Shown piece by piece: positions 1,966 through 16,904 of a DNA stretch of 26,686 bases; positions within the stretch are counted from its first letter, which is position 1, and every line of letters begins with the position of its first letter. The notes beneath the pieces are model-generated. The model saw only the letters and a list, made by a program, of their open reading frames with translations, was not told where the DNA came from and ran no database searches. The stretch is taken from IMG/VR virus record IMGVR_UViG_3300033155_000378, positions 1 through 26,686 of that record; one strand, 5' to 3'. This stretch comes from a virus. The position numbers were made by a program, and so were the translations under genes.

Positions 1966-1978
1966 ATATAGCTAACGC
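1966..1978 (-). repeat. GCGTTAGCTATAT intergenic element, copy 1
   Basis: Minus-strand GCGTTAGCTATAT begins one base after the stop codon of the winged-helix gene and is followed by TAATGC and a T-rich tract (TTATTATTTTTGA). The same 13 bases begin immediately after the portal stop codon at 16829 on the plus strand, followed by ACTGC and TTTATTTTTAGA. Both copies precede a TATATTAT box by roughly 60-70 nt. Function unknown. Confidence 0.55.
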
Positions 1979-1979
1979 A

Positions 1980-2231
1980 TTATAGAATTGTTAGCTTTCT
2001 GCCTACTCTTTGTATGTAATTATGTTGTTTTAATTCTTTTAACCATCTTTTTATAGATGATTGACTTGAGTCAGCATCATCAGCTAATGTACTGATTGAT
2101 GGCCAACATAATCTGTTTTTGTTTGCATAGCAACATAAAATACTATACAAACCTTTTGCTTGAATAGATAGATTAGGATCTGTTAAGACTTCATGTTTAA
2201 CAATTCCAAATCTACTGCTCTTCCTGTACAT
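1980..2231 (-). CDS. Winged-helix DNA-binding protein (HTH_36 / replication-initiator N-domain type)
   Basis: 83 aa that is essentially one winged helix-turn-helix. The opening FGIVKHEVLTDPNLSIQAKG, then LYSILCCYANKNRLCWPSIS and SSQSSIKRWLKELKQHNYIQ, follow the pattern of HTH_36 domains in plasmid and phage replication initiators and phage regulators (start 'F..V...vl.D..L...AK.lY..L', recognition helix 'S..TV.R.I..L...G'). There is no C-terminal catalytic domain, so it is either a repressor-like regulator or a detached replication-initiator domain. It overlaps the end of the preceding gene by 20 nt. Its stop is followed at once by the GCGTTAGCTATAT element. Confidence 0.75.
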   Translation of the reverse strand: MYRKSSRFGIVKHEVLTDPNLSIQAKGLYSILCCYANKNRLCWPSISTLADDADSSQSSIKRWLKELKQHNYIQRVGRKLTIL

Positions 2232-2400
2232 GATCTTTTAGTAGTCTAAGTAGTGCAAGATTATTATCTTGTTCTGCTTGCAACTTTAGATCAGTTAAAG
2301 AATACTTACTATTCATATAAGGTCCAAAGTGTTTATGTTCTTCTTGGCCCTTAAAGCGTCTATATTCTGATTTTACTAGTGTTATTGATAATTTAGGCAT
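2212..2400 (-). CDS. Unknown small protein
   Basis: 62 aa, charged, no motif recognised. The middle (EEHKHFGPYMNSKYSLTDLK) is polar and the C-terminal third (residues 38-62) looks helical. It sits one base after the stop of the gene at 2402-2947 and overlaps the winged-helix gene by 20 nt, so all three are read as one unit. The tight packing is the main reason to believe it is real. Confidence 0.6.
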   Translation of the reverse strand: MPKLSITLVKSEYRRFKGQEEHKHFGPYMNSKYSLTDLKLQAEQDNNLALLRLLKDHVQEEQ

Positions 2401-2401
2401 A

Positions 2402-2947
2402 TTAAAAGTTATCTGGGTTATCTATATATACTGTATTGGTCAATGCAAGTTCTGTTTGCTTACCATTTTTAAAATATTTAATAGCATTTTTAGTAATTCT
2501 AGTACAAAACATAGGATTTATCTCAAACGGAACAAGTTTAAGGTTTTTTTCTGTGTCATGATATAATAGTTCTAGCTTAATTCTGCTATAAAAAGGATTA
2601 AATGGTTTATCTGTTGACCAAGAAGTGTCACCAACAACTTTACCATAGACTAAATCATTGTCTGTGGGCAATAATCCCATATCACTAAGAATATCTACTT
2701 CATATTCTGATCTTTTGTGATAATTAGGTGGCTTAACCTTGACATAATCACCAATTTTAAGCGCTTTATACTCACTTTCTAATAACATCAAGTGAATGAT
2801 AGCTTCTACAGAGCTATCTGACAGTTCTTCTGTCAATATTTTATAGACGTGGTTACTGTTCTTACTAAAGTTAAATGCTTTAGGATCTATAATCTTAGAA
2901 AAGATAACACGTATAACGTCTTTTTGTAATGAATAAGTATCTGACAT
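2402..2947 (-). CDS. Unknown protein, soluble
   Basis: 181 aa with no recognised family. Residues 1-60 look helical; residues 62-80 (KIGDYVKVKPPNYHKRSEYE) resemble a small beta-barrel, KOW-like strand-turn-strand ('GD.V.V..P'). The C-terminal half has alternating hydrophobic residues. The barrel resemblance is weak. It heads a three-gene unit with the genes at 2212-2400 and 1980-2231. Its start lies 12 nt downstream of a strong 18-bp hairpin (2960-3020), a likely site for control of translation or RNA stability. Confidence 0.7.
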   Translation of the reverse strand: MSDTYSLQKDVIRVIFSKIIDPKAFNFSKNSNHVYKILTEELSDSSVEAIIHLMLLESEYKALKIGDYVKVKPPNYHKRSEYEVDILSDMGLLPTDNDLVYGKVVGDTSWSTDKPFNPFYSRIKLELLYHDTEKNLKLVPFEINPMFCTRITKNAIKYFKNGKQTELALTNTVYIDNPDNF

Positions 2948-2959
2948 AATTTAATATTT

Positions 2960-3020
2960 TAATCAAGAGCACATACAGAAAACAAGTATGAGAAAACTGT
3001 ATGGCTCCTGATCTTGATTA
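2960..3020 (-). promoter_or_regulatory. Long leader hairpin upstream of the 2402-2947 gene
   Basis: Three stacked helices: 2960-2966 with 3014-3020 (TAATCAA/TTGATTA), 2967-2970 with 3004-3007 (GAGC/GCTC), and 2972-2978 with 2997-3003 (CATACAG/CTGTATG). They are separated by a 6-nt bulge and a single A, with an 18-nt loop. The structure ends 12 nt before the start codon. No T-run follows, so it reads more like a leader element than a terminator. The rest of 2948-3107 shows only AT-rich sequence. Confidence 0.6.
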
Positions 3021-3107
3021 CACAATCAACAATCCACAAGACCTAACTACACTAGTGTTATAAATATATTATAATACTGGTGTTGTTAGTGGTCCATATG
3101 TGGAACT

Positions 3108-3440
3108 TTATTTATTTGCTGCTTTGAACTCAATGCAAACAAATGGGATTAGTATAATCCATTTCTTGTAGCGTCCTTTTGCACCATTAGTACCCATTGC
3201 CAAACCAATAACTGGTGTTTTTTCAAAGGATACAGCTGGTAATAGCTTGGTAGAACGCATCATTGTAACATAAAATAATGCGTTTACCCAAACTATAATC
3301 AACAAAACTACTTCAACTAAAAGTTTCATGCTTCCTAACCAACCATTATAATAATAGTTCATAATGATTAGTGAAGTCATTCCAAAAGGAATAATTACCG
3401 TAAATAGCCATTTAAGCAATGACTTGAAAAATGTTTTCAT
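3108..3440 (-). CDS. Small inner-membrane protein
   Basis: 110 aa with two clear hydrophobic segments at about residues 10-28 (WLFTVIIPFGMTSLIIMNYY) and 39-60 (LLVEVVLLIIVWVNALFYV), and a weaker third near the C-terminus (KWIILIPFVCIEF). Lysines flank the first segment. It is not obviously a holin, since the tail is not strongly charged and no lysis gene is adjacent. It sits 11 nt after the lipoprotein at 3452-3868, so an envelope role in the infected cell, such as superinfection exclusion, is plausible but unproven. Confidence 0.7.
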   Translation of the reverse strand: MKTFFKSLLKWLFTVIIPFGMTSLIIMNYYYNGWLGSMKLLVEVVLLIIVWVNALFYVTMMRSTKLLPAVSFEKTPVIGLAMGTNGAKGRYKKWIILIPFVCIEFKAANK

Positions 3441-3451
3441 AATTGTTTAAT

Positions 3452-3868
3452 TTATAAGATTATTATTGTGTCACCCAATGCTAAACGATCAGCAAGGATT
3501 AACTCTGTTATGTAATAGTCCCCATTCCATGTAGACCAATCTGCATTGGATAGTGGACTGAATGTTCTGATAATGTAATCTGGTTCAGCATTCATAACAC
3601 CATTAGTGCTATCTGTTGCCCACTCTATCCAGCAGCTTTCTGCCCAACAAGTAGGATTAGTGCTTTCCCATTGTGCCTGATAAATAGGCATCTTAAAGCT
3701 ATCCCAACCATATATGTCTTTTTGACCTACGATTGGTGTGTTTAATTGTACAAATACAAATGATGTATCTGATAACGGTTGTACCCCTACAAGTTCACAC
3801 TCAAGAGGCTCCTTCTCACAGCTCATTATAGATACTACGAGAAGGAATATTGATATATACCTTAACAT
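3452..3868 (-). CDS. Predicted lipoprotein, possibly surface-exposed
   Basis: 138 aa with a type II signal peptide: basic N-terminus MLR, hydrophobic stretch ISIFLLVVSI, lipobox IMSC with the lipidated cysteine at residue 17. The mature start CEKEPLECE is acidic right after the cysteine, which resembles the lipoprotein export signal that sends Bacteroidota lipoproteins to the cell surface. The mature part is rich in Trp (WDSFKM, QWEST, CWAESCWIEWATD, DWSTWNGDYY) and contains a close cysteine pair near residue 95. Its start overlaps the end of a tiny upstream lipoprotein by 7 nt. A receptor-masking or superinfection-exclusion role is inference; no family is recognised. Confidence 0.8.
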   Translation of the reverse strand: MLRYISIFLLVVSIMSCEKEPLECELVGVQPLSDTSFVFVQLNTPIVGQKDIYGWDSFKMPIYQAQWESTNPTCWAESCWIEWATDSTNGVMNAEPDYIIRTFSPLSNADWSTWNGDYYITELILADRLALGDTIIIL

Positions 3869-4014
3869 CTGGTATACTTTTGTTTTTTAGCATTCCAACA
3901 TTTCTGTTTCTTCATCTTCATTTTAGATGTTTTACAAGATCTACTGGATGCACATGATTGTACGATTGGACCAGCTATAAATAGCATGATCATAAGATAA
4001 ATGATTCTTTTCAT
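3862..4014 (-). CDS. Very small predicted lipoprotein (50 aa)
   Basis: Read directly from the minus strand: it starts MKRIIYLMIMLFIAGPIVQSC, with a lipobox VQSC at residues 18-21. The 29-residue mature part is basic and has four cysteines in all (21, 27, 39, 50), ending TRC. The TAA at 3862-3864 overlaps the next lipoprotein gene by 7 nt, which suggests coupled translation. Its leader carries the TAAAATAAACA block and the structured element at 4048-4138. The signal peptide and the coupling make chance unlikely. Function unknown; it may pair with the larger lipoprotein, and the mature peptide would be positively charged at the membrane surface. Confidence 0.65.
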   Translation of the reverse strand: MKRIIYLMIMLFIAGPIVQSCASSRSCKTSKMKMKKQKCWNAKKQKYTRC

Positions 4015-4016
4015 AA

Positions 4017-4138
4017 TGTTTATTTTAAATGATTATTTGTTGTAATAAAAAGAGAGTACAGATCCTAGTCTTATTTCTGTATTTCACTGCTTCACTTTTA
4101 TCAGGATGGTAGCTATGTGCACTAGCTAACTCTCTTTT
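4017..4138 (-). promoter_or_regulatory. Structured leader with a three-way-junction fold
   Basis: A perfect 10-bp stem (AAAAGAGAGT 4048-4057 with ACTCTCTTTT 4129-4138) encloses two inner helices, 4062-4066 with 4103-4107 (ATCCT/AGGAT) and 4110-4114 with 4124-4128 (TAGCT/AGCTA). On the minus strand the closing stem runs into a T-run and TATTACA, so it could end transcription from upstream or act as an attenuator. The start codon of the 50-aa lipoprotein lies 33 nt beyond. Blocks at 4017-4027 and 4041-4051 are identical to those in the leader at 890-933. Confidence 0.5.
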
Positions 4139-4535
4139 AATATTGCGGGTACTATGTCTATTATCCTATAGAGGAAGAGACATAACACCATTATTTAGTA
4201 TTGTTGCTTGTATTTAGGGCAATGCCCTTTATGTTAGCTATATTTATATTATAGGTAGTGCTAATTGTTACAGTAGTGGTAAAAGGTGGTATTTTGTGGG
4301 TATAAGACCTCACTTTTATTGTGACACACACAAAAAAATTTAATTTACCAACAGTTTTTTTAAATTATTACTGATTTTTTCTATTTATTAGCACATAACG
4401 TTATATAGCTGGGGAGAAGACTGCAGAAGCCGTAGTTGGCAGAGCAGATAGCAGAGTAATTAGCAGTAACCATGCAGAGTTATTACTCAGTTAAACAAGC
4501 AACAGGGCATTACACCCTGATGCTGTTGTACTACA
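4139..4535. other. Noncoding stretch with several hairpins and no convincing gene
   Basis: About 400 nt with no open frame of note; the longest I read on the minus strand starts at 4473 and encodes only 30 residues. It contains a compound hairpin 4153-4184 (TATGTCT/AGACATA outside TCCT-ATAG-AGGA), AGGGC-AAT-GCCCT at 4216-4228, GTTAGCTATAT at 4233-4243 next to TATATTAT at 4245-4252, GAGTAAT/ATTACTC around 4454-4488, and CAGGG-CATTACA-CCCTG near 4503-4519. The TATAGCTGGGGAG repeat is at 4404-4416. A small RNA, a replication-related site or leftover control DNA are all possible. Confidence 0.5.
4404..4416 (+). repeat. Direct repeat TATAGCTGGGGAG, copy A
   Basis: Thirteen bases identical to 4928-4940. 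Similarity continues weakly on the right side (NAGAYTG, then AGAA and CC with one gap). The two copies lie on either side of the gene at 4536-4865 and are more GC-rich than their surroundings. Confidence 0.6.
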
Positions 4536-4865
4536 CTACGCTGATTCAACCCAACGTAGATTAGTTTCTTCTCCTGTGTTTAAATCTATCACAGGATTAT
4601 CTGATAGTTTAAAGCCCGGCATTTCATCCCCTTGATTAAGCTTATTTTGCAAAGCTTTAATTGTTGGATGATTAGCACGCATCACTTTGTTGGTTTCAGG
4701 GTCTATAAGACTTAAGATACCAAAAGTGACATTACCAGTAGCTCTTGTTGCTACTGACATTCCAGCAAGTTCACTCTTCTTTGAAGTGATGAGCTTGTCT
4801 GTTACAATGATTGTGGCTGTGCCTGTGTTCTCATTGATTCTTAATTTTCTGAAAAATACACTCAT
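4536..4865 (-). CDS. Unknown soluble protein, first gene of the leftward block
   Basis: 109 aa, not recognised with certainty. The N-terminal half (SVFFRKLRINENTGTATIIV) has a beta-strand pattern. The second half contains NHPTIKALQNKLNQGDEMPG and the ending NPVIDLNTGEETNLRWVESA, a conserved-looking strand-turn with a final aromatic. No signal peptide, zinc site or membrane segment is seen. As the first gene reading leftward from the divergent control region it may be made early and in quantity. A small nucleic-acid-binding or accessory replication role would fit, but nothing in the sequence proves it. It is flanked by 13-nt direct repeats. Confidence 0.7.
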   Translation of the reverse strand: MSVFFRKLRINENTGTATIIVTDKLITSKKSELAGMSVATRATGNVTFGILSLIDPETNKVMRANHPTIKALQNKLNQGDEMPGFKLSDNPVIDLNTGEETNLRWVESA

Positions 4866-5105
4866 AATTTTATTATATTTAAGTTATAGGGCTCCCACAT
4901 CCTTGTGGGGGTACCCCGTGTACAGTTTATAGCTGGGGAGCAGATTGGTAGAACCTTTCAAGCACGCAAAACACACAACTTTTTGGGGGGCAGGAAATTT
5001 TTTTTCTAGAGGGCGGGGGCATGTTGTCACTCAAAAATTTTTATAGAATTTAAAAAATCACTATATTATTCTTATAAAAGAGTTACTAACTAAAATACTT
5101 TCAGC
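4866..5105. promoter_or_regulatory. Divergent control region between leftward and rightward blocks
   Basis: Genes point away from this 240-nt region, so it must hold promoters for both directions. On the right, ACTATATTATTCTTATA (5060-5076) resembles the TATATTAT promoter-like motif and lies about 37 nt before the start at 5106. On the left, the leader of the 4536-4865 gene contains alternative hairpins: GCTCCC 4891-4896 with GGGAGC 4936-4941, or CCCACA 4894-4899 with TGTGGG 4904-4909, plus the palindrome GGGGTACCCC 4908-4917. G-runs near 4985 and 5012 stand out from the AT-rich background. Confidence 0.5.
4928..4940 (+). repeat. Direct repeat TATAGCTGGGGAG, copy B
   Basis: Identical to 4404-4416. 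This copy supplies the GGGAG arm that can pair with CTCCC at 4892-4896, so here it is part of the leader fold of the 4536-4865 gene. No such partner was seen near copy A. Confidence 0.6.
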
Positions 5106-5426
5106 ATGGCAGAGAATAATAATGGACAAGAGGAGCAAGATGATATAATGGATAGAATACATCAAGCACAATTAGATCAAATATTATTAGACAAGGCTTA
5201 TGACAATGCGTGGCTGATACTGTCCGGACAAATAACTTTTGATGAGTTACTAGGCCAAAATTTTAGAAATGAAGAATCTATGATAATGGCCTTTGATCCA
5301 GGAGAAGGACCGAAAGAACAAGAGTTAGAGAATATGATAGCACATTACATTGAATTAGAACAGTATGAGAGATGTGCAAAATTAACTGAGATACTAAACA
5401 AAACGTATCCTAAAATTACAATATAA
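5106..5426 (+). CDS. Acidic helical protein with a UVR-like C-terminal motif
   Basis: 106 aa. The N-terminus is acidic and polar (residues 1-20), the middle is helical (DKAYDNAWLILSGQITFDELL), and the C-terminal 30 residues (LENMIAHYIELEQYERCAKL) follow the UVR-motif spacing (two short helices, 'LE..M..y.e.E.YE.CA.L..iL') known from UvrB/UvrC and various phage proteins as a protein-interaction hairpin. Identification is by pattern only. It is the first rightward gene after the divergent region. Its TAA shares its last base with the ATG of the next gene. Confidence 0.7.
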   Translation: MAENNNGQEEQDDIMDRIHQAQLDQILLDKAYDNAWLILSGQITFDELLGQNFRNEESMIMAFDPGEGPKEQELENMIAHYIELEQYERCAKLTEILNKTYPKITI

Positions 5427-5629
5427 TGGCACTAAAGAAATCAAGTAAAAAGAAAAGTACTGTAAATAGTAGTGGTAATTACACTAAACCAACTCTTCGT
5501 AAAAGATTATTTAATCAAATCAAAGCTGGAAGTAAAGGCGGAAGACCGGGACAATGGTCAGCACGTAAAGCTCAAATGTTAGCTAAAAAGTATAAAGCTG
5601 CTGGTGGAGGTTATAAAAGTAAGAAGTAA
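5426..5629 (+). CDS. Small, very basic protein (Gly/Lys-rich)
   Basis: 67 aa, about one third Lys/Arg. It contains LRKRLFNQIKAGSKGGRPGQ followed by WSARKAQMLAKKYKAAGGGY, a module I recall from other phages and some large DNA viruses as a short domain of unknown function. There is no membrane segment. Its charge suggests binding to DNA or RNA, possibly inside the virion. It starts on the last base of the preceding stop and ends the same way into the next gene, so translation of the cluster is probably coupled. Confidence 0.75.
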   Translation: MALKKSSKKKSTVNSSGNYTKPTLRKRLFNQIKAGSKGGRPGQWSARKAQMLAKKYKAAGGGYKSKK

Positions 5630-5841
5630 TGAAGAGAAAGCTACTTACAATATTATTATTACTTGTTATGAGCTGTGGCCCAGCAAAACCATCATGGGAA
5701 TATAAAAAAGCACCTGATACTTTATTTGAAGCGGTTAACGTAAAAGATAATCCAAACGTAACTAAGAATGATAAAACAATAATGGGACTTTTATTTTCAG
5801 GTATGGTTTTATTTGTATTACACACATTTGTAACAAGATAA
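5629..5841 (+). CDS. Small lipoprotein with a C-terminal membrane segment (spanin-like candidate)
   Basis: 70 aa. The start MKRKLLTILLLLVMSC is a signal peptide with lipobox VMSC and lipidated Cys16. After a polar stretch of about 35 residues, residues 51-66 (IMGLLFSGMVLFVLHT) form one hydrophobic segment followed by FVTR. An N-terminal outer-membrane lipid anchor plus a C-terminal transmembrane segment is the architecture of unimolecular spanins (T1 gp11 type), which disrupt the outer membrane at lysis. Known members are longer, so the periplasmic part here is short. The amidase lies 1.65 kb downstream. Alternatives are a small envelope lipoprotein or a virion-entry protein. Confidence 0.7.
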   Translation: MKRKLLTILLLLVMSCGPAKPSWEYKKAPDTLFEAVNVKDNPNVTKNDKTIMGLLFSGMVLFVLHTFVTR

Positions 5842-6107
5842 TGGCAAAGACAAAACAACAAAAGAGTCTAGATAGATGGACTAAACAGAAGTGGAGAACT
5901 CCTTCAGGCAAGAAAAGCTCTGAGACAGGAGAAGTATATGCACCGTCTAAGACTATTTCTAAATTAAAAAGTACTAAGAAAGGTAGAAAGAAGCTAGCTG
6001 CGGCAAATGCAAAGAAGAGAGCAGCAACAAGAAAAGGTAAACAGCACGCCAGTCATGGCTTACATAAGGGTAAGAACAGAACTGGAGCTAAGAAAAAAAA
6101 GAAATAA
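5841..6107 (+). CDS. Small, extremely basic protein (DUF5872-like by memory)
   Basis: 88 aa, roughly 40% Lys/Arg, ending in a run of lysines. The N-terminal WTKQKWRTPSGKKSSETGE with YAPSK, and the later KKRAATRKGKQ, match a pattern I remember from a domain of unknown function shared by phages and giant viruses; the DUF number is from memory and may be wrong. Such proteins are plausible DNA-condensing or virion-internal components. It joins its neighbour with a TAATG overlap at the 5' side and has one base before the next ATG. Confidence 0.75.
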   Translation: MAKTKQQKSLDRWTKQKWRTPSGKKSSETGEVYAPSKTISKLKSTKKGRKKLAAANAKKRAATRKGKQHASHGLHKGKNRTGAKKKKK

Positions 6108-6108
6108 A

Positions 6109-6570
6109 ATGAATAAAAGAGAAAAAGCAAGGATGTGGTTTGCACATAGAGGCATTAATCCAGATAACACATTTACAAACCCAGAGGATAGACAATTTAC
6201 TAAACTTGACTTTCCACCAATTCCAGTAAAGTATGAAAATGCTCCATCTTTACAATGTCAGATAGACATTATTTCATTTTTAGTATATTCTCATGTTACA
6301 GTTATGTTCTGTGATCCGTCTGGTCAAGAATGGGAATATGAAGGTGGAGCTGGTGGATTAGGTGCAGGAGACATTTCTGGTGAAGGTATTTTAACTTATG
6401 GTGATTTAGATACGTTAACAACTGCAACAACCTTTGAAGTATCTTTTATAAGTGCTGATGGTGGAGGTACACAAGTATCTTGGGGATCAAGTGGTAATGC
6501 ATTTGCTGCTGGTGTTGGTGAAGGCTTTGGTGTCTTTGGTGGCAGTGGCGGTTGGAAAAAAGTAGGATAA
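6109..6570 (+). CDS. Gly-rich beta-type protein (VapA-like resemblance, weak)
   Basis: 153 aa from the ATG at 6109, chosen because it is one base after the preceding stop; the frame stays open further upstream but only inside the previous gene. The N-terminus is basic (MNKREKARMWFAHRG). Residues 75 to the end are glycine-rich with alternating beta pattern: GGAGGLGAGDISGEGILTYG, then VSWGSSGNAFAAGVGEGFGV. The order 'Gly-rich strand, YGDL, FEVSFISADGGG, terminal GGW' is reminiscent of VapA/VapB-type beta-barrels, which I offer only as a resemblance. Its placement among small basic proteins hints at a virion or host-interaction role. Confidence 0.65.
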   Translation: MNKREKARMWFAHRGINPDNTFTNPEDRQFTKLDFPPIPVKYENAPSLQCQIDIISFLVYSHVTVMFCDPSGQEWEYEGGAGGLGAGDISGEGILTYGDLDTLTTATTFEVSFISADGGGTQVSWGSSGNAFAAGVGEGFGVFGGSGGWKKVG

Positions 6571-6860
6571 TGGCAAAAAAGAAAGATAGTAGATTAACAA
6601 GAGCTGGTGTAGCAGGCTATAATAAGCCTAAGCGTACACCCAATCACCCAACAAAATCACATATTGTGGTTGCTAAAGACGGTGATAAGATAAAGACTAT
6701 ACGTTTTGGTCAACAGGGTGTTAAGACAGCTGGTAAGCCTAAAGCTGGTGAGTCAGCTAAACAAAAAGCAAGACGTAAGAGTTTCAAAGCAAGACATGCT
6801 AAAAACATTAAAAAAGGTAAAATGTCTGCTGCATATTGGGCAAATAGAGTTAAATGGTAG
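6570..6860 (+). CDS. Small basic protein, conserved-looking
   Basis: 96 aa from the ATG at 6570 that shares a base with the preceding TAA (an upstream TTG at 6552 is possible but less likely). It has SRLTRAGVAGYNKPKRTPNH, HIVVAKDGDKIKTIRFGQQG and a C-terminal SFKARHAKNI with YWANRVKW. I recall near-identical proteins in many marine and Bacteroidota phages without an assigned function. The long stretch GESAKQKARRKSFKARHAKN is highly basic. A nucleic-acid-binding virion protein is a reasonable inference. Confidence 0.8.
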   Translation: MAKKKDSRLTRAGVAGYNKPKRTPNHPTKSHIVVAKDGDKIKTIRFGQQGVKTAGKPKAGESAKQKARRKSFKARHAKNIKKGKMSAAYWANRVKW

Positions 6861-6863
6861 ATT

Positions 6864-7115
6864 ATGACACAAGCACAGCTAATTAAATTAGGATTTCAAA
6901 AAGTTTTTATAGATGAAGATGATGAAAACCACTTTTACTATCACATTGAATTTGGTGAGATAATATTTATTTCAGGAGATAATGAAGAAGCTGAAGAAGA
7001 TGGGGGTTGGTATATTACTACTCCTTGCCAAACACTTAGATTTTATGCGTATAATGAAATCAAAAGCGTAATAAATATATTCAACCGTAATAAAATTTCT
7101 GAAAATAACGTCTAA
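6864..7115 (+). CDS. Unknown small acidic protein
   Basis: 83 aa with a mixed alpha/beta pattern: MTQAQLIKLGFQKVFIDEDD, then HFYYHIEFGEIIFISGDN, an acidic loop, then WYITTPCQTLRFYAYNEIKS. I recall similar short proteins in Bacteroidota phages but no role. It begins 3 nt after the preceding stop and ends the first rightward cluster, as a promoter-like motif follows at 7133. Confidence 0.65.
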   Translation: MTQAQLIKLGFQKVFIDEDDENHFYYHIEFGEIIFISGDNEEAEEDGGWYITTPCQTLRFYAYNEIKSVINIFNRNKISENNV

Positions 7116-7132
7116 ACTTTTTTGATGTAAAC

Positions 7133-7149
7133 TATTTTTGTATATCTTT
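7133..7149 (+). promoter_or_regulatory. Candidate phage promoter motif before 7177
   Basis: TATTTTTGTATATCTTT shares TTTTTGTATAT with the motifs at 16905, 22155 and 23871. TATTTTTG also fits the Bacteroidota -7 box TAnnTTTG, though no TTG element is at the usual distance. The start codon lies 27 nt downstream. Confidence 0.4.
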
Positions 7150-7176
7150 GTCAATATTAACTTAAAATATTGAAAG

Positions 7177-7494
7177 ATGGCAAAAGAAACCAATGTTAAT
7201 CCGCTAAGTGAAAAAGATCCTCAAATGTCTAAAGAGGAAATGGCTAAGCGTAGAGAAGAAATTACTGAATTTTATAAAGATAACATACCTCATCTTGAAG
7301 TACAAGCTGATTATGAAACGTTATTAGCAGCTATTGAAAAAGCTAGAGCTGAAAGAATGCAAGCTCAAATGTTTTTAGCTCAATCTTATGCACAACAAAA
7401 TGCACAGAATGGAGTAGATCCAAACTCTGAGGAAGGTAAAGCTTTCCAAGAAGCAATGGCTAATGCTATGAAAGGAGGAAGTGAGGAGTCATGA
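7177..7494 (+). CDS. Unknown helical protein, first gene of the lysis/DNA block
   Basis: 105 aa, predicted almost fully helical between residues 20 and 75 (MSKEEMAKRREEITEFYKDN, then LLAAIEKARAERMQAQMFLA), with a Gln/Asn-rich C-terminus ending GGSEES. No known domain. It starts the unit after a promoter-like motif, and its TGA overlaps the amidase start by 4 nt (ATGA), which suggests coupled synthesis. It has no membrane segment, so it is not a holin. A structural or chaperone-type accessory is possible; unknown. Confidence 0.7.
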   Translation: MAKETNVNPLSEKDPQMSKEEMAKRREEITEFYKDNIPHLEVQADYETLLAAIEKARAERMQAQMFLAQSYAQQNAQNGVDPNSEEGKAFQEAMANAMKGGSEES

Positions 7495-8411
7495 GACAAT
7501 TAAAATTAGGTAGTAGAGGTAAAGATGTAGAAACTTTACAAGCAAAACTTAAAATTCATGTTGATGGTCACTTTGGACCTATCACTGAAAAAGCTGTAGA
7601 AAGATACCAACTAGCTAAAGATCTTCCATGTACAGGTATTGTAGATAATGATACATGGACATTATTATTAAATGTAGAGTGGTCAGGTATTGATGCAATA
7701 ACTGAAGACACTGATGTAACAGAACAGTATTATAAAACTAACTATAATCAAATAATTCATAGACATTACTTACCAAAAGGAGAGTATATAGAAGGACCTA
7801 TTCAGAATGAATATATATTTCTACATCATACAGCTGGTAATGCAAATCCATATAGATGTATTGATCATTGGGGTAGAGATTCACGTGGGCGTATAGCTAC
7901 TGAATTTGTATTAGGTGGTATTAATCATAGAAATGGTAATGATGAATATGATGGGGTTATGGTTCAAGCTTTTCCAGAAGGTGCACAAGGTTGGCATTTA
8001 GGAAAAACAGGATCAGGTTTTATGAACCGTCATTCTGTAGGACTGGAGATTTGCAGTATGGGTTATTTAGATAGAAATCATTTAACCTATGTAAATTCTA
8101 AATGTCAAAAAGATCAAGTAGTTGAATTATCAGAACCATTTAAGGGTATGTCTTTATGGCACAGATATTCTGATGCACAAATTAAAGAAACTGAAAAGTG
8201 GATTAGATATGTAGGTGAAAGAGATGAGATTGATATTAGATTAGGTCTAAAGCAATTTATAAAAAAACACGGACCAACAAAAGGATTTGGTTTTCAGTCT
8301 GATGCATTCTATGGTAAAGTTAGAGGATTATTAACACATACAAACGTAAGGAAAGATAAGTGGGATTGTTTTCCACAGCCTGAGTTTGTAGATATGATAA
8401 TGAGTTTATAG
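7491..8411 (+). CDS. N-acetylmuramoyl-L-alanine amidase (endolysin) with a peptidoglycan-binding domain
   Basis: 306 aa. Residues 1-60 are a PG_binding_1 domain (LKLGSRGKDVETLQAKL, DGHFGPITEKAVERYQ, GIVDNDTW). Residues about 105-300 are an Amidase_2 (type 2, zinc) domain, cutting the bond between N-acetylmuramic acid and L-alanine. Likely zinc ligands are H112 or H113 in FLHHTAG, H283 in LLTHTNV, and C293 (with D292) in KWDCFPQ; SVGLEI at 182-187 is a family strand. There is no signal peptide, so release needs a holin or the protein acts from the virion. An extended insertion (about 195-260) is unusual but continuous. Confidence 0.92.
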   Translation: MRQLKLGSRGKDVETLQAKLKIHVDGHFGPITEKAVERYQLAKDLPCTGIVDNDTWTLLLNVEWSGIDAITEDTDVTEQYYKTNYNQIIHRHYLPKGEYIEGPIQNEYIFLHHTAGNANPYRCIDHWGRDSRGRIATEFVLGGINHRNGNDEYDGVMVQAFPEGAQGWHLGKTGSGFMNRHSVGLEICSMGYLDRNHLTYVNSKCQKDQVVELSEPFKGMSLWHRYSDAQIKETEKWIRYVGERDEIDIRLGLKQFIKKHGPTKGFGFQSDAFYGKVRGLLTHTNVRKDKWDCFPQPEFVDMIMSL

Positions 8412-8412
8412 T

Positions 8413-8784
8413 ATGGCATTAGTAAATAAAGTAGATTTAAAATTGCAAGTAGATCTTGATGTTTCAATAAAGTATCAAATAGTTACTTATTGTTTTTTTA
8501 ATGAAACATTAATTTCTAATTCTGATTTAAAATTTTTAAGTGAACTAGGAAAAGCAGGAAAGATAGAACTAACAAAATTTTGTACTGATTTAGTTAAACA
8601 AAATATATTTAAGAGTTCTCAGTCTGCAAGAAATGCTATTACAAAAGCAGAAAAAAAAGGTTTACTTACTAAACAGGGCGTAAACAAAAAAACAATTACT
8701 CTTAATAAAGCAATAAATGTACAAACAGATGGACTTGTTTTATTAGATTATAAAGTTTTAGGACGTGAAACCCAAGAGTCATAA
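8413..8784 (+). CDS. Possible winged-helix protein, unknown
   Basis: 123 aa. Residues 45-85 (LGKAGKIELTKFCTDLVKQN, then SSQSARNAITKAEKKGLL) show helix-turn-helix spacing with a following wing-like strand pair (LTKQGVNKKTITLN). It could bind DNA or be a small virion protein with a winged-helix fold; no family is recognised. It starts one base after the amidase stop. The next gene's GTG start overlaps its last 20 nt. Confidence 0.65.
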   Translation: MALVNKVDLKLQVDLDVSIKYQIVTYCFFNETLISNSDLKFLSELGKAGKIELTKFCTDLVKQNIFKSSQSARNAITKAEKKGLLTKQGVNKKTITLNKAINVQTDGLVLLDYKVLGRETQES

Positions 8785-9615: not shown

Positions 9616-10427
9616 TGGCAATTACATTTAAAGAAGAAGGACATTTGTATGAAAGCATTGATCAAGATAAGATAACTTGGACAAGTGTTACTTCTTTAGT
9701 GGGTAAATTTAAACCCAAATTTGATAGAGAAGGTCAAGCAAAAAAATCTTCTAAGAATAAAAGATCTAAGTGGTATGGTATGACACCAAAAGAAATTATT
9801 GCTGCATGGGATGGTGAAACTGAAAGAGCAATAAAATTAGGTAACTTTTACCATAATCAAAGAGAAGCAGATATGCTTGATTTAAAGACTATAGGTAGAC
9901 ATGGGGTGGAAGTTCCCATCATTAAACCTATTATTGATGATAATGGAACTAAAATTGCACCAAAGCAAAAGCTTGAAGCAGGTGTTTATCCAGAACATTT
10001 AGTGTATTTAAAGTCAGTTGGTATATGTGGTCAAGCAGATCTTGTTGAAGTAGTTAATGGTTATATAAATATCACTGATTACAAAACTAATAAAGAAATA
10101 AAAGAAAAAGGTTTTACTAATTGGGAAGGAATAACTAACAAAATGTTTAGGCCTGTTAATCACTTAGATGATTGTAATTTGAACCATTATAACCTACAAC
10201 TCAGTATTTATGCGTATATTATTAAAAAGCACAACCCTAAATTAAAGATAGGTGATTTAACAATACAGCATGTAAAATTCAAACAAATTGGAGAGGATAA
10301 AAATGGTTATCCAATCAATGAGCATGTTAATGGAGAACCTGTATTAGAAGATATAAAAATTTATAAACTACCATATTTAAAAGATGAAGTAAATTCAATT
10401 ATAATGTGGCTAAAAGAAAACCAATAA
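9615..10427 (+). CDS. PD-(D/E)XK nuclease, RecB/Cas4-like exonuclease type
   Basis: 270 aa with the family motifs in order: KLGNFYHNQREADM (74-87, the 'G..H...E' helix), E127 in YPEHLVY, GQADLVEV with D142, INITDYKTNK with D155 and K157, then the Q motif HYNLQLSIYAYIIKK (191-205). D142, D155 and K157 would form the metal-dependent active site. Related phage proteins trim or process DNA during replication and recombination. No helicase domain is attached. It lies between small unknown genes upstream of packaging and shares one base with both its preceding stop and the next ATG. Confidence 0.88.
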   Translation: MAITFKEEGHLYESIDQDKITWTSVTSLVGKFKPKFDREGQAKKSSKNKRSKWYGMTPKEIIAAWDGETERAIKLGNFYHNQREADMLDLKTIGRHGVEVPIIKPIIDDNGTKIAPKQKLEAGVYPEHLVYLKSVGICGQADLVEVVNGYINITDYKTNKEIKEKGFTNWEGITNKMFRPVNHLDDCNLNHYNLQLSIYAYIIKKHNPKLKIGDLTIQHVKFKQIGEDKNGYPINEHVNGEPVLEDIKIYKLPYLKDEVNSIIMWLKENQ

Positions 10428-10678
10428 TGAAAGAATATATAGCAGCAGTAGAAGTACAATCATTGCAATCTAAAGTACCAACAGATTTTAGATTTGAAGA
10501 AACTAAAATAAGAATTGACTTAGATAAAGTTGTATGGTTTAAAGAATACTTTCATGTAGCAACAGATAAATTTCAAGATACTCATACAGAGGTTTTGTTA
10601 TTTGGACAGAATAAACCAATTATCTTAGTTGTACCATATGAAACATTATGGCAAGATATATTAACATTTAAAAAATAA
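10427..10678 (+). CDS. Unknown protein, paralogue of the next gene
   Basis: 83 aa when started at the ATG that overlaps the nuclease stop (TAATG at 10425-10429); a GTG at 10406 would add seven residues but sits inside the nuclease gene. Residues 27-70 (TKIRIDLDKVVWFKEYFHVA, FQDTHTEVLLFG, PIILVV) align without gaps to residues 47-90 of the protein at 10682-11026. The pattern predicts four or five strands, compatible with a small beta-barrel. No known family. Confidence 0.7.
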   Translation: MKEYIAAVEVQSLQSKVPTDFRFEETKIRIDLDKVVWFKEYFHVATDKFQDTHTEVLLFGQNKPIILVVPYETLWQDILTFKK

Positions 10679-10681
10679 ATA

Positions 10682-11026
10682 ATGGCAAAAATACCTATAT
10701 TAAAAACAAACTATAGAACCTTGACACAAGTTTTTCCAGTAGTTCCATTAGATTCAAATGGTGCTCCTGCTGTAGACAGGAATGGTAACCGTTTAAATAA
10801 AGACATGTCTAATAGAACAGACTTATATATTGATATGAATACTGTAATTGGAGTATCTAAATATTTTGATGATAATTCAGAAAGATTCAGAAATAGCTAT
10901 AGTCAGATTATAATAGTAGGCGTATCTGTACCTGCTATTCCTATTGTAGTAACTCAAAATGTAGGTACTATAAAAGGCTATATGAATGACAGAGAAAATT
11001 GTGGTGAACTCTGTGAAGACAACTAA
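10682..11026 (+). CDS. Unknown protein, paralogue of the preceding gene
   Basis: 114 aa. A 45-residue N-terminal extension precedes the shared region (TDLYIDMNTVIGVSKYF, then RFRNSYSQIIIVG and VPAIPIVV). Its C-terminus has two cysteines (NCGELC). The pair looks like a tandem duplication followed by divergence, perhaps giving hetero-oligomeric virion or packaging accessory parts. It starts 3 nt after the preceding stop and is followed 2 nt later by the gene before the GroES-TerL block. Confidence 0.7.
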   Translation: MAKIPILKTNYRTLTQVFPVVPLDSNGAPAVDRNGNRLNKDMSNRTDLYIDMNTVIGVSKYFDDNSERFRNSYSQIIIVGVSVPAIPIVVTQNVGTIKGYMNDRENCGELCEDN

Positions 11027-11028
11027 TT

Positions 11029-11547
11029 ATGATAGTAAAGTTATTTGATATACAAAACAGTAAGGTGGTTTTAACAGAGCATTGTTTTACATTACCATTT
11101 TTAAAAAGCATTATGACAGAATACCCTGATACTCATATGCAGGTTTATCAGTATTTATTTTATATGTCATGTCCTAATCCTGATTTAAATCCTTTTTTTA
11201 ATTTACCTGAACATGAAAAGGAAGATATAATTATTGAAGAAATAGGTTTAGAAGAATCTCCAGAAGATCCAAAGATTAGATATGCAATGGATATGTGTAA
11301 GAAGTTATATGAAACTCCAACATACAGAGCTTATGTAGGTATTAAATCCATGTTAGATAGATTAGCTAAATACATGGAAGTTACACAGATAGAACATGGA
11401 AGAGATGGAAACATCAACTCTATGGTAAATGCAGCTGCTAAGTTTGAGCAAATAAGGCAGTCATACAAAGGAGCATTTACAGATATGAAAAATGAACAAG
11501 AAAGTTCAGTACGTGGTGGTGCAGGATTAGCTTATGATCAAATGTAA
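11029..11547 (+). CDS. Conserved-type phage protein upstream of terminase, unknown
   Basis: 172 aa, helical and acidic in the middle (EKEDIIIEEIGLEESPED), with recognisable stretches MQVYQYLFYMSCPNPDLNPF, FNLPEHEKED and YETPTYRAYVGIKSMLDRLA. I recall close relatives in crAss-like and other Bacteroidota phages near terminase, without an assigned role. Position next to TerL makes a small terminase or packaging adaptor conceivable, but no helix-turn-helix is evident. The C-terminal SSVRGGAGLAYDQM is Gly-rich and probably flexible. Confidence 0.8.
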   Translation: MIVKLFDIQNSKVVLTEHCFTLPFLKSIMTEYPDTHMQVYQYLFYMSCPNPDLNPFFNLPEHEKEDIIIEEIGLEESPEDPKIRYAMDMCKKLYETPTYRAYVGIKSMLDRLAKYMEVTQIEHGRDGNINSMVNAAAKFEQIRQSYKGAFTDMKNEQESSVRGGAGLAYDQM

Positions 11548-11558
11548 ATTTAATTAAT

Positions 11559-11678
11559 ATGGAATGGATCTTCTGTTATTGGGATGAGCCAGAATTTAAA
11601 AATAAAAAACCAAATAAAAATGAAACAAATAGTAATACCAGTAGGAAAAAGACTACTAATCAAAAGAAAAGCAGCTGA
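11559..11678 (+). CDS. Possible very small protein overlapping the GroES-like start
   Basis: 39 codons read as MEWIFCYWDEPEFKNKKPNK and a Lys/Asn/Ser-rich remainder ending QKKSS. It opens 11 nt after the previous stop, and the true start of the GroES-like gene lies inside it in another frame. The Trp-rich beginning and the basic tail do not look random, and the gap would otherwise be empty. The overlap could couple translation of the co-chaperonin. There is no independent support, so treat it as a candidate. Confidence 0.4.
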   Translation: MEWIFCYWDEPEFKNKKPNKNETNSNTSRKKTTNQKKSS

Positions 11679-11895
11679 AACTAAAACTAAATCAGGAATA
11701 ATTATTCCAGAAGTAGCTCAAAAGAAAGAGTTTAAAGGAACTGTAGTAGGTGTTGGAGCTGAGGTAGAAGAAATTAAAGTAGGAGATGAAGTTCAGTATG
11801 CTGAGCATGCTATGCCTACACCTATGAAACATGAAGGCGTAGAGCATTTACTTCTCCAAGCTGGAGATGTCTTTGCTATTATAAGATATGAGTAG
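11620..11895 (+). CDS. GroES-like co-chaperonin (Cpn10)
   Basis: 91 aa from the ATG at 11620; a start at 11584 would add 12 polar residues not found in Cpn10. The body fits the family: IVIPVGKRLLIKRKAAETKT, the mobile loop SGIIIPEVAQKKEFKG with the hydrophobic III that contacts GroEL, then TVVGVGAEVEEIKVGDEV and the ending FAIIRYE. Family knowledge: it caps GroEL during folding. Phage versions (T4 gp31, RB49 CocO) let host GroEL fold large capsid proteins. The location directly before TerL, in the head operon, fits that role. The roof-loop region appears to be altered (AEHAMPTPMK). Confidence 0.88.
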   Translation: MKQIVIPVGKRLLIKRKAAETKTKSGIIIPEVAQKKEFKGTVVGVGAEVEEIKVGDEVQYAEHAMPTPMKHEGVEHLLLQAGDVFAIIRYE

Positions 11896-14077
11896 GATAA
11901 TCCCAACATATGAAAAGGGAGAATGGGGAACTACTGAATTTGAATCTGATCTTGATTTTAGAGAATATTTAGAAGGTATTTTTAAAGAACCAGGTCAGTA
12001 TGATTTTACAGAAGTTGCTTTAAAATTCAACAAGGAAGCCCGTACATTTAATGAGCAGGGCTTTTATTGTAATGCACCATTTAGATCTAAAGACTTTACT
12101 GCATATTGGGAAGATCAAAAAAACAAATGCAGGCAGGGTGTTATATACAAAGATCAGGGTAAAGAATGGTATTTGACTAGAGACTACTATATGTGGTTAA
12201 ATTTTTTACCAATCTTTGATAAAGAAGAAAAACATTATGGTTTTGCAAAAGTGCGTGATGCACAGTATCATATGGCTTTATATGAAATACTTGCAGAATT
12301 AAATAACCAACACTCAGCTATTCTTAAAAAAAGACAGATTGCTTCTTCATATTTTCATATGGGTAAGATCATAAACCAGTATTGGTTTGAAGAAGGTTCT
12401 ATATGTAAGATAGGTGCATCATTAAAAGATTATATTAATGATAAAGGTTCATGGAAGTTTTTAGAAGAATATAAAACTTTTTTAAATGAACACACTGCTT
12501 GGTATAGACCAAGCAACCCAGAGAAAGTATTACTTTGGCAACAGCAGATTGAAGTAAAAGTAAATAATAGAAAAACTTCAAGAGGTCTTAAGTCTAAAAT
12601 ACAAGGTGCATCTTTTGAAAAGAATGCAACAACAGGTGTTGGTGGTCCATGTACTTACTTTTTTCATGAAGAGGCTGGTATTGCTAAAAATATGATGCAG
12701 ACTTATGAGTACTTGCGTCCAGCAATGTCTTCTGGTATGGTAACTACAGGTATGTTTATAGCTGCAGGATCAGTGGGTGATCTTGAACAATGTAACCCAC
12801 TTAAGGAAATGATTTTAAATCCTGGTGCTAATGATATATATGCCGTAGAAACTAATCTAATGGATGCTGATGGCACTATTGGTATGGCAGGGTTATTTAT
12901 TCCAGAACAGTGGTCTATGCCTCCTTATATTGATGAATATGGTAACTCTCAAATTAAAGAAGCTATAGAAGCAATTAAAATAGAAAGACAAAGATGGAAG
13001 AGTGAATTAAGTGGTGAACAATACCAATTGAGAATATCTCAGAAACCTTTAAATATTGCTGAAGCATTTGCATATAGAAAAGAATCAATATTTCCACAGG
13101 GTATATTAAGTAAACAACTTAAAAAGATTGAAGAAAAAGAATATGCCTATGAATATATTGAATTAGATAGAGATCAATCTGGTATTGTTGCAAAAAGAAC
13201 TAAGAAGTTGCCTATATCTGAATTTCCAGTAAATAAAAAACAAACAGATAAGACAGGATCTATTGTTGTATGGGAAAGACCCGCAAGTAAAAGACCAGAG
13301 TTTGGTGCGTACTATGCTTCTATTGACCCTGTATCAGAAGGTAAAACCACAACATCAGATTCATTGTGTAGTATTTATGTTTATAAAAATGCTATAGAAG
13401 TTACAAGAGAACTACCAGGTGGTGATGTAGAACAGTTTATTGAAAAAGATAAAATAGTAGCAGCATGGTGTGGTAGATTTGATGATATAAATAAAACCCA
13501 TGAAAGATTAGAAATGATCATTGAATGGTATAATGCTTGGACTATTGTTGAGAACAACATATCCTTGTTTATACAACATATGATTGCAAGAAAAAAACAA
13601 AGATACTTAGTACCAAAACAACAGATATTATTTTTAAAAGATCTTGGTTCAAACAGAACTGTATATCAAGAATATGGTTGGAAGAACACAGGTACTTTAT
13701 TTAAAAGCCATTTAATATCTTATGCTATTGAGTTTTTAAGAGAAGTAATTGATGAAGAATTAGATGACAATGGTAATGTAATGAACCAAACTTTAGGTGT
13801 AGAAAGAATACCTGACCCAATGCTTTTAAAAGAAATGCTTGCATATTATCCTGGTCTAAACGTGGATAGACTTGTAACATTTGGAGCATTAATTGCCTTT
13901 GTAAAAATACAGCAATCTAACAGAGGTTACTCAAAAAGACGTGAATCAGAGGATAATTCCTTGGTAAATTCACAAAAAATAAGTAAATTAAAGTATAGTC
14001 CGTTTAGGAATATAGGTAGTAATAAAAAGCAATCTAACCAGAGAATAAGAAGATCAGGCTTTAAAAACATTAAATAG
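11888..14077 (+). CDS. Terminase large subunit (TerL)
   Basis: 729 aa, the DNA-packaging motor and nuclease. The ATPase part has KKRQIASS at 147-154 in the Walker A position, Walker B TYFFHEEAG (256-264), and GMFIAAGSVGD (288-298) as the coupling segment. The nuclease part has D480 in YYASIDPVSEG, E555 in WTIVENN and D660 in NVDRLVTFGALIAF, the RNase H-like triad. The Walker A lacks the usual Gly-Lys-Ser/Thr (see findings). It overlaps the GroES-like gene by 8 nt and abuts the portal gene. The C-terminus is basic and probably binds portal or DNA. Confidence 0.92.
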   Translation: MSRIIPTYEKGEWGTTEFESDLDFREYLEGIFKEPGQYDFTEVALKFNKEARTFNEQGFYCNAPFRSKDFTAYWEDQKNKCRQGVIYKDQGKEWYLTRDYYMWLNFLPIFDKEEKHYGFAKVRDAQYHMALYEILAELNNQHSAILKKRQIASSYFHMGKIINQYWFEEGSICKIGASLKDYINDKGSWKFLEEYKTFLNEHTAWYRPSNPEKVLLWQQQIEVKVNNRKTSRGLKSKIQGASFEKNATTGVGGPCTYFFHEEAGIAKNMMQTYEYLRPAMSSGMVTTGMFIAAGSVGDLEQCNPLKEMILNPGANDIYAVETNLMDADGTIGMAGLFIPEQWSMPPYIDEYGNSQIKEAIEAIKIERQRWKSELSGEQYQLRISQKPLNIAEAFAYRKESIFPQGILSKQLKKIEEKEYAYEYIELDRDQSGIVAKRTKKLPISEFPVNKKQTDKTGSIVVWERPASKRPEFGAYYASIDPVSEGKTTTSDSLCSIYVYKNAIEVTRELPGGDVEQFIEKDKIVAAWCGRFDDINKTHERLEMIIEWYNAWTIVENNISLFIQHMIARKKQRYLVPKQQILFLKDLGSNRTVYQEYGWKNTGTLFKSHLISYAIEFLREVIDEELDDNGNVMNQTLGVERIPDPMLLKEMLAYYPGLNVDRLVTFGALIAFVKIQQSNRGYSKRRESEDNSLVNSQKISKLKYSPFRNIGSNKKQSNQRIRRSGFKNIK

Positions 14078-16828
14078 ATGAAAGTATTAAATGCAATGCA
14101 AATGAAAAACGGGGCAAGAGCTGAAAGTGGCCCTACGTTTTCTAGTTTAACACAGCCTGTTCAGTTTTTACCGTATAAGAAAAAAACAGATGACTGGTCA
14201 GCATGGAATTTAGATTGGTTAGAATTACAAGGTATAGAGTTTTTACGTGTAAACTCTAGAAGGTTACTTAAAAATTATAAACTTGCAAAAGGAGTAATTG
14301 ATAAATCAGATTATATAGTTGAGCCTGACAATGAGTATAAAGATTTAATGGACGTTTTAACTACTGAAAATGATTCAGCATTAGAACTTAAATTTTATCC
14401 TATTGTACCTAATGTTATAAATGTACTTACTGGTGAATTTGCTAAAAGATATTCTAAAGTACAATTTAGAGCTGTTGATGATGCATCTTATAATGAAATG
14501 CTTGAACAAAAAAAGATTCAAATAGAAGAATCTTTATTGGCTGATGCAGAAGCAAACTTGGTACGTAAGATGATAGAAATGGGTATGGACCCAGGATCAG
14601 AAGAAGCACAACAACAACTTAACCCAGAAGCTTTAAAATCATTACCAGAGATAGAAGACTTTTTTAGTAAGTCTTATAGAAGTATGGTAGAAGAGTGGGC
14701 ATCCCACCAACTTGCAGTTGATGAGGAAAGATTTAAAATGCAAGAACTTGAAGAAAGAGGGTTTAGAGATATGCTTATTGCAGATAGAGAATTTTGGCAT
14801 TTCCGTATGCTAGAAGATGACTATGATGTAGAGCTATGGAATCCTGTATTAACTTTTTATCAAAAATCTCCAGACCAAAGATATATTGCTGATTCAAATT
14901 ATTGTGGTAAGATTGATCTAATGACTGTATCTGATGTAGTAGATAGATATGGTTATTTGATGGATGAGAAACAACTAAAGTCTCTACAAAAGATTTATCC
15001 GGCAAGATCAGCACAGTATCAAGTTAATGGATACCAAAATGATGGTGCATATTATGATGCTACAAGATCTCATGAATGGAATACAAACATGCCAGGTTTA
15101 CCATACAGACAGTTCACATCTAATTACTGGAATGATCCAGCAAGAGGTGGAGATATATTAAGTCAAATTCTTGATGAGAATGAAGATGTTTCAATGTGGG
15201 GTGAAGGTAACCTAATGAGAGTATCAACCATTTATTGGAAGACACAGCGTAGAGTAGGTCATTTAACAAAAGTAGAAGATGATGGAGAAATCATACAAGA
15301 GATTGTAGATGAAACATTTAAAATTACTAAGAAAGCAGTATATGACACTTCTATTTTTAAAAGTAAAACAAAAGAGAATCTTTTACAAGGAGAACATATA
15401 GATTGGATCTGGATTAATGAAGTATGGGGTGGGGTTAAAATTGGTCCAAATTTACCAGCAATGTGGCAATCTACTATGGGTGATAACATAAACCCAATAT
15501 ATTTAGGTATTAACAGAAAAAAACCAGGAAGGTTACCGTTCCAATTTAAAGGAGATAATAGTTTATATGGTTGTAAACTACCTGTAGAAGGTAGAGTTTT
15601 TTCTGATAGAAACACAAGATCTACTTCATTAGTTGATTTAATGAAAGCATATCAAGTTGGGTACAATATGGTTAACAACCAAATTGCAGACATTCTGATA
15701 GATGAATTAGGAACAGTAATCATGTTTGATCAAAATGCTTTACCACGTCACTCAATGGGAGAAGACTGGGGTAAAAATAATTATGCTAAAGCATGGGTAG
15801 CAATGAAAGATTTCCAAATGTTACCTTTAGATACTTCAATTACTAATACTGAGAATGCCACCAACTTCAATCACTACCAGACTCTAAACATGGAGCAAAC
15901 TAATAGATTGATGTCAAGAATTCAATTAGCAAATTATTTTAAACAGCAATGTTTTGATGCAATTGGAATAAACCCACAACGTTTGGGTGGGGCTGTATCT
16001 GCACAAACTGCAACTGGTGTAGTACAAGCAATGCAACAATCTTATGCACAAACTGAAATGTACTTTGTTCAGCATTCTGATCATTTAATGCCAAGAGTAC
16101 ATCAAATGAGAACTGACCTAGCTCAATATTATTATAGTTCAAATCCAAGCTTAAGACTACAATACATATCCACAGAGGCTGAGAAGGTCAATTTTGCTAT
16201 TAACGGTACTGAACTATTACTTAGAGATTTTAATGTATTTGCAACTACTAAAACTAATCATAGAGCTATACTAGAAAATCTTAAACAAATGGCTCTTACA
16301 AATAACACAACAGGAGCAAGTATTTATGAATTAGGTAATATTGTTAAAGCTGACTCTATTGCTGAAGTATCTGATATATTGAAAGATTCAGAAATCAGAC
16401 AGCAGAAAATGAGAGAACAAGAAATGCAACAACAACGTCAAATGCAAGAGCAACAACTTCAAGCAAAAGCTCAAGAAGAGCAACAGAAGTTACAAGTTGA
16501 GATGGCAGAAAATCAAAAAGATAGAGAGAATGATGTGTTGTTAGCAGAAATAAGATCAGCTGGTTATGGATCTATGGTAGATATAAATCAAAATCAAGTA
16601 TCTGATTATCAAGATGCTATGAAAGATATTAGAGAAACTACCCAGTATAGAGAACAGATGAACATGAAGCGTGAAGAAAATGCATCCAAGTCTATTATGG
16701 AACAAAGCAGACTTCAGGTAGAAAGAGAAAAAATAGCAGCCTCAAAACAAATAGCAGACACTAAACTTCAAATTGCTAAAGAGAACAAAAATAAGTATGA
16801 TTCTCCAAAAAGTAAAGATGATAAATAA
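14078..16828 (+). CDS. Portal protein
   Basis: 916 aa, very large for a portal. The N-terminal region (residues 35-120, with LKFYPIVPNVINVLTGEFAK) and the central region (NPVLTFYQKSPDQRYI, GYQNDG, and the segment around KAYQVGYNMVNNQIADILID) fit the large portals of crAss-like and other podovirus-type phages by memory. A long insertion rich in Glu/Gln (about 145-235) probably forms the wing. The C-terminal 130 residues are a Gln/Glu/Lys-rich coiled coil (MREQEMQQQRQMQEQQLQAK), likely a barrel that reaches into the capsid. The gene follows TerL with no gap and ends the packaging unit, with the GCGTTAGCTATAT element just after its stop. Confidence 0.85.
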   Translation: MKVLNAMQMKNGARAESGPTFSSLTQPVQFLPYKKKTDDWSAWNLDWLELQGIEFLRVNSRRLLKNYKLAKGVIDKSDYIVEPDNEYKDLMDVLTTENDSALELKFYPIVPNVINVLTGEFAKRYSKVQFRAVDDASYNEMLEQKKIQIEESLLADAEANLVRKMIEMGMDPGSEEAQQQLNPEALKSLPEIEDFFSKSYRSMVEEWASHQLAVDEERFKMQELEERGFRDMLIADREFWHFRMLEDDYDVELWNPVLTFYQKSPDQRYIADSNYCGKIDLMTVSDVVDRYGYLMDEKQLKSLQKIYPARSAQYQVNGYQNDGAYYDATRSHEWNTNMPGLPYRQFTSNYWNDPARGGDILSQILDENEDVSMWGEGNLMRVSTIYWKTQRRVGHLTKVEDDGEIIQEIVDETFKITKKAVYDTSIFKSKTKENLLQGEHIDWIWINEVWGGVKIGPNLPAMWQSTMGDNINPIYLGINRKKPGRLPFQFKGDNSLYGCKLPVEGRVFSDRNTRSTSLVDLMKAYQVGYNMVNNQIADILIDELGTVIMFDQNALPRHSMGEDWGKNNYAKAWVAMKDFQMLPLDTSITNTENATNFNHYQTLNMEQTNRLMSRIQLANYFKQQCFDAIGINPQRLGGAVSAQTATGVVQAMQQSYAQTEMYFVQHSDHLMPRVHQMRTDLAQYYYSSNPSLRLQYISTEAEKVNFAINGTELLLRDFNVFATTKTNHRAILENLKQMALTNNTTGASIYELGNIVKADSIAEVSDILKDSEIRQQKMREQEMQQQRQMQEQQLQAKAQEEQQKLQVEMAENQKDRENDVLLAEIRSAGYGSMVDINQNQVSDYQDAMKDIRETTQYREQMNMKREENASKSIMEQSRLQVEREKIAASKQIADTKLQIAKENKNKYDSPKSKDDK

Positions 16829-16841
16829 GCGTTAGCTATAT
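16829..16841 (+). repeat. GCGTTAGCTATAT intergenic element, copy 2
   Basis: Starts on the base after the portal stop codon. Continues ACTGCAATTTATTTTTAGA, which resembles the sequence after copy 1 on the minus strand at 1966-1978 (TAATGC, TTATTATTTTTGA). A promoter-like TATATTAT follows at 16912. An 11-nt core (GTTAGCTATAT) is also at 4233-4243. Confidence 0.6.
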
Positions 16842-16904
16842 ACTGCAATTTATTTTTAGAATTAGTGAAATTTTTTAAGTTTATGTTGATAATAATATAG
16901 AAAA

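Follow-up and report, generated by a model that had tools for sequence, protein, structure and literature searches.

The control of morphogenesis operons by the Ogr and delta proteins of phages P2 and P4 relies on one phage activator, which acts through one upstream site per promoter on few promoters (PMC3931495). The P2 sites are TGT-N12-ACA dyads located at four late operons, and P2 Ogr is a zinc-finger protein (CX2CX22CX4C). In class I activation, the activator bound upstream touches the C-terminal domain of the RNA polymerase alpha subunit and thereby raises transcription. A rule of helical phase governs the class I sites of the E. coli activator CRP: those placed around -61.5, -71.5/-72.5 and -81.5/-82.5 are active, and those at -66.5 and -76.5 have hardly any effect or none (PMC6301791). 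Bacteroidota promoters are of the -33/-7 type (TTTG / TAnnTTTG), with TAnnTTTG serving as -7 box for the primary sigma factor, and the first T of this box has been mapped at -12 in F. johnsoniae (PMC6847099). In Crassvirales, the virion polymerase has been assigned the early and middle genes, and the host polymerase the late ones (PMC10136315).

The DNA analysed here, hereafter the window, is a complete IMG/VR record of 26,686 bases. Its portal (14078-16828, + strand) is 22-32% identical to those of the Cellulophaga phages phi17:2 and phi4:1, of a Leptolyngbya phage and of gut crAss-like phages (tblastn, E down to 2e-102). By this relatedness, the window represents 26.7 kb of the genome of an uncultured crAss-like phage of the order Crassvirales. 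The host is probably a member of the Bacteroidota, with a sigma factor differing from that of E. coli; a scan with the sigma-70 consensus returned matches no more numerous than in shuffles. In agreement with the three-phase expression scheme of Crassvirales, in which they make up middle and late genes, the replication and structural modules lie on opposite strands (PMC10136315).

A preliminary description of the window reported a 13-mer, GCGTTAGCTATAT, placed after two stop codons on opposite strands, and this is indeed the case. On the + strand it occupies 16829-16841, directly 3' of the portal stop; on the - strand it maps to 1978-1966, one base past the stop of an 83-aa open reading frame (1980-2231) coding for a winged-helix protein. 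As also described, both copies run on into a TGC and a T-rich tract, and both are followed by a TATATTAT box, 70 nt (16912, +) and 62 nt (1904, -) past the end of the 13-mer. The two sites are delimited here as element A, GTTAGCTATATACTGC (16831-16846, +), 2 nt past the portal stop and upstream of the capsid operon, and element B, GTTAGCTATATTAATGC (1960-1976, -), 3 nt past the stop of the winged-helix gene, with GTTAGCTATAT-N(2-3)-TGC as their shared signal. An exact 11-mer occurs three times in the window, against 0.03 occurrences expected from order-3 Markov resamples of the window. Taken within the window alone, a repeat present on both strands is weak evidence and proves little, because 68 different 13-mers are found on both strands of the same sequence; it is conservation in relatives, and not the repeat itself, that decides whether the element is real.

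Since the record consists of the window only, further copies were sought in relatives, retrieved by two protein searches of IMG/VR that yielded many contigs with portals 76-100% identical. A complete copy was defined as the 11-mer with at most two substitutions, plus TGC. Element A, with at most two substitutions, was found in 102 of 112 distinct regions downstream of the portal. Among the ten other regions, two hold variants of it with indels, several carry genes inserted between the portal and the operon, and two belong to the distant reference phages JY46 and csAssE; behind the portal, the element is absent from phi17:2 as well as from these two phages. Element B stands behind all 38 distinct orthologues of the winged-helix gene, including that of G009, whose protein is only 47% identical. 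When the cassette patterns were scanned against the whole of IMG/VR (2.9 million contigs), each of the 54 matches to the B pattern lay behind the winged-helix gene, and the expected downstream gene was also seen in 52. The A pattern, consisting of the element plus an AAGTTTA block at fixed distance, gave 26 matches; of the 24 checked, those in newly fetched loci, 23 lie behind the portal, and the remaining one, at a contig end, precedes the gene normally found downstream of the portal. The window and five long relatives contain one A and one B apiece. No other complete copy occurs in the window or in four of these relatives, and the fifth, G003, has two extra imperfect matches, both devoid of the downstream blocks. 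Alignment of relatives and column profiles showed that 14 bp of the post-portal site are nearly without variation, in contrast to the variable sequence separating the blocks. Comparison of these sequences indicates that A and B are deeply conserved among the IMG/VR relatives, which form a large family of uncultured crAss-like phages. The search in relatives that had been proposed as a check of the element found it conserved in a fixed gene context, on the portal side for A and on the winged-helix side for B.

The third copy of the 11-mer (4233-4243, +), previously proposed as a member of the cassette, does not belong to it, because it lacks the TGC and, in many relatives, sits in a frame that reads LAIFILLV inside a short hydrophobic stretch; this frame has no obvious start codon and is interrupted in the window. 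We treat this copy, on sequence grounds, as a coincidence inherited by descent. The surrounding region (4140-4320) is itself a very conserved stretch, present in L096, L108, L117 and others, which contains a CCTATAGAGG motif and, over 50 codons, a hydrophobic frame (YYPIEEETKTTLVVLL...KGGILWV). This frame has no obvious start and is broken in the window; a small RNA, a peptide made by frameshifting and a gene in decay are possible readings of the stretch. A further sequence, TATAGCTGGGGAG, appears twice on the + strand (4404-4416 and 4928-4940), on either side of a minus-strand gene (4536-4865) that is duplicated in several relatives. In the relative G001 (L165-L170), the cumulative GC skew reaches its minimum near 19 kb, where the two gene arms diverge, close to the stretch holding the third 11-mer copy.

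Cassette A shows a defined order of blocks. Specifically, TAGCTATATACTGC is followed by an AAAT block (16868-16871, +), which column profiles show to be common to A and B and which lies about 22 nt, or two helical turns, past the TGC; by TAAGTTTA (16876-16883, +), 28 or 29 nt past the TGC in all 94 distinct A cassettes; and then by TATATTA. In the window, the corresponding late-type promoter box TATATTAT (16912-16919, +) starts 65 nt past the TGC, in the long spacing class. Behind it lies an operon whose first gene (16958-18292, +) codes for a 444-aa protein with no family match and which includes the major head protein gene (from 18350). Across the 94 distinct cassettes, TATATTA begins either 52-54 nt (47 cassettes) or 64-65 nt (47 cassettes) past the TGC, and in none of them at 55-63 nt. 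The two classes switch at least five times on the portal protein tree, a count that intergenic recombination could make too high and that rests on a tree of medium support with several weak forks; the absence of intermediate lengths remains even if recombination lowers this number.

With a T-rich tract and G in front of it, the TATATTAT box is marked by its distribution as the general late-type promoter of these phages: among 8-mers found before genes it ranks first for strand specificity, occurring in 38 upstream regions, against 11 for the reverse strand. It also precedes other structural genes that lack the element. The late-type promoter, TTTTTTGTATATTAT followed by a TATAGTA-like sequence, is found in the window at 16906-16919, 22160-22171 and 23870-23886, upstream of several structural genes, and is strongly strand-specific across relatives. 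The TAAGTTTA block was considered as a host -7 box and judged unlikely to be one, as a G at -9 is virtually absent from F. johnsoniae promoters (PMC6847099). One relative (L063, around 6190) has kept the TAAGTTTA and TATATTAT blocks but lost element A together with the usual end of the portal, which reflects either a natural deletion or an assembly error. Closer to the genes, AAAACCAAC lies shortly before start codons, both in the window (16942-16951) and in many genes of the relatives, and is enriched upstream of genes; AAACCAAC shows no variation in 15 of 15 aligned A regions. These contexts may have a role like that of the A-rich initiation context of Bacteroidota.

In cassette B, TAGCTATAT-NN(A/C/G)-TGC is followed by a T-rich tract, by AAAT, whose offset is close to that in A, and then by TAnnTTTG. 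This box, or a close variant of it, starts 63-64 nt past the TGC in 38 of 38 B cassettes, a likeness to Bacteroidota promoters that is restricted to B: the capsid promoter of cassette A has no TAnnTTTG and uses TATATTAT. In the window, the host-type -7 box is the close variant TATCTTTA (1889-1896, -; TAnnTTTG in most relatives), 63 nt past the TGC, and the TATATTAT box of this cassette (1897-1904, -), 55 nt past the TGC, is conserved less than the -7 box. The B profile has no strongly conserved -33 column (TTTG); the -33 element is weak in F. johnsoniae too (PMC6847099). The first gene of the block behind B (1601-1870, -) codes for an 89-aa protein with no family match, and in G001 the block continues on the same strand into helicase, DnaB-like helicase and primase genes.

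The position of both window copies directly after stop codons would suit a signal acting at the RNA level, such as a site of 3' end formation, processing or antitermination. Phage lambda likewise carries a nut site in each of its two early operons. In the relatives, however, the distance from stop to element ranges from 2 to 58 nt, or reaches at least 800 nt in the presence of inserted genes. It is the spacing to the promoter downstream that stays fixed, and a functional tie of the element to stop codons is not borne out. In addition, of seven base pairs in the candidate RNA structure none has both sides changed, so that compensatory change does not support it, and the spacing varies by turns of DNA. 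We therefore consider an RNA-level role very improbable. Spacing that moves one helical turn at a time means that the helix face matters, which argues for a protein on double-stranded DNA; together, helical phasing, the lack of a supported RNA structure and the lack of a fixed link to stop codons favour a double-stranded DNA operator. Of the three functions put forward at the outset (operator, RNA-processing site or initiation element), the operator fits best, and RNA processing is disfavoured. The broader proposal of one functional intergenic cassette, present on both strands and with meaningful order and spacing, is supported by the conservation and the rigid spacing.

Specifically, we give about an even chance to the element being a double-stranded DNA operator for one phage-encoded transcription regulator acting on two promoters. 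The putative regulator would bind B, before the replication block with its host-type -7 box, and the same protein would bind A, before the capsid operon with its late-type TATATTAT box. Once bound, it would probably activate RNA polymerase from upstream in a class I-like manner; binding by a protein, activation as opposed to repression, the starts of transcription and the identity of the binder are what we infer here. With the first T of each box set at -12, a placement that for TATATTAT is an assumption, the site centres would fall near -83 (B and the long class of A) or near -72 to -72.5 (the short class of A), on one helix face. The distances in the cassettes (52-54 or 64-65 nt in A, 63-64 nt in B) keep the site on the same face at whole-turn intervals, and a class I-like activator site is favoured because the inferred centres match the working positions of CRP. 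The likeness to CRP lies in this helical-phase rule, with inferred positions of -72 and -83; the site sequence is different, and the system belongs to a phage of a probable Bacteroidota host with a different sigma factor, its activator being putative.

The parallel with Ogr and delta of P2/P4 is one of design, namely one activator (here proposed), one upstream site per promoter and a handful of promoters. The sites themselves differ from those of P2, as the TGT-N12-ACA dyad is not found and TAGCTATAT-N(2-3)-TGC has no clear dyad. The candidate binder is a winged-helix HTH_36 protein and not a zinc-finger protein, and one of the two targets is a replication block. Two points run contrary to the operator reading: the late promoters at 22264 and 23914 lack the element, which is thus not needed for late transcription generally, and the A and B promoter boxes differ, so that a single contact geometry must serve two promoter types.

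A near-invariant element of 14-16 bp in a single orientation relative to the genes could also itself serve a phage RNA polymerase as core promoter, for example the virion RNA polymerase by which crAss-like phages read their early and middle genes (PMC10136315), with the downstream boxes as separate tandem promoters. A fixed phase is not needed between tandem promoters, but here the spacing to the following box shifts only by 11 bp; moreover, one copy precedes the late capsid genes, thought to be read by the host polymerase (PMC10136315), and a sequence-based search for a phage RNA polymerase gene in the relative examined gave no match. We regard this explanation as unlikely. The geometry also suits looping or phased contacts by a repressor or architectural protein that keeps both operons off, or silent until replication, and a candidate binder is encoded beside site B; with centres near -72 and -83, the sites lie clear of the promoter, which most simple repressor sites overlap, and there is a single site per promoter, which makes such a role rather unlikely.

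Returning to the operator reading, the leading candidate for the binder, from its gene position, is the protein adjoining B (1980-2231, -; 83 aa), which belongs to HTH_36 (Pfam E 8e-14) and resembles the DNA-binding domain of phage replication initiators. An HTH_36 orthologue immediately precedes element B in all 38 cases, and the tie between protein and element is one of adjacency, at B only. Among the organisms itemised in the tblastn search for named phages related by this protein (a few records were not itemised), there was no Cellulophaga or Flavobacterium phage; the occurrence of gene and element together in one lineage is suggestive only.

The same domain raises the idea that the element is an initiator binding site marking two origins, as HTH_36 is an initiator-type DNA-binding domain and its gene is in the replication arm, adjoining site B. 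Arrays of repeats are the usual targets of initiators, whereas each site here has one copy. Furthermore, the GC-skew minimum of G001 near 19 kb is not at A (31 kb) and lies about 3 kb from B (16 kb), and an origin would not be expected to show spacing in phase with a promoter; this explanation appears quite improbable. Within the operator reading, we tentatively propose, as a possibility well short of an even chance, that a stand-alone protein with an initiator DNA-binding domain has turned into a two-target switch, coupling the replication block and the capsid operon via one phased upstream site each.

In the open-licence literature searched, we found no description of the motif, with the three string matches all in unrelated papers, nor of a shared cis element joining replication and structural modules; the word promoter is absent from the Crassvirales review (PMC10136315). 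With a host-type box, the replication block would depart from the polymerase scheme proposed for Crassvirales (PMC10136315). The switch from replication to capsid production in crAss-like phages is poorly known, and our data suggest that one regulator, not described before, switches the two blocks. For a lineage known here from metagenomes only, the gain is a concrete cis element, backed by phylogeny, that links both modules, and with it a spacing rule and a named candidate regulator.
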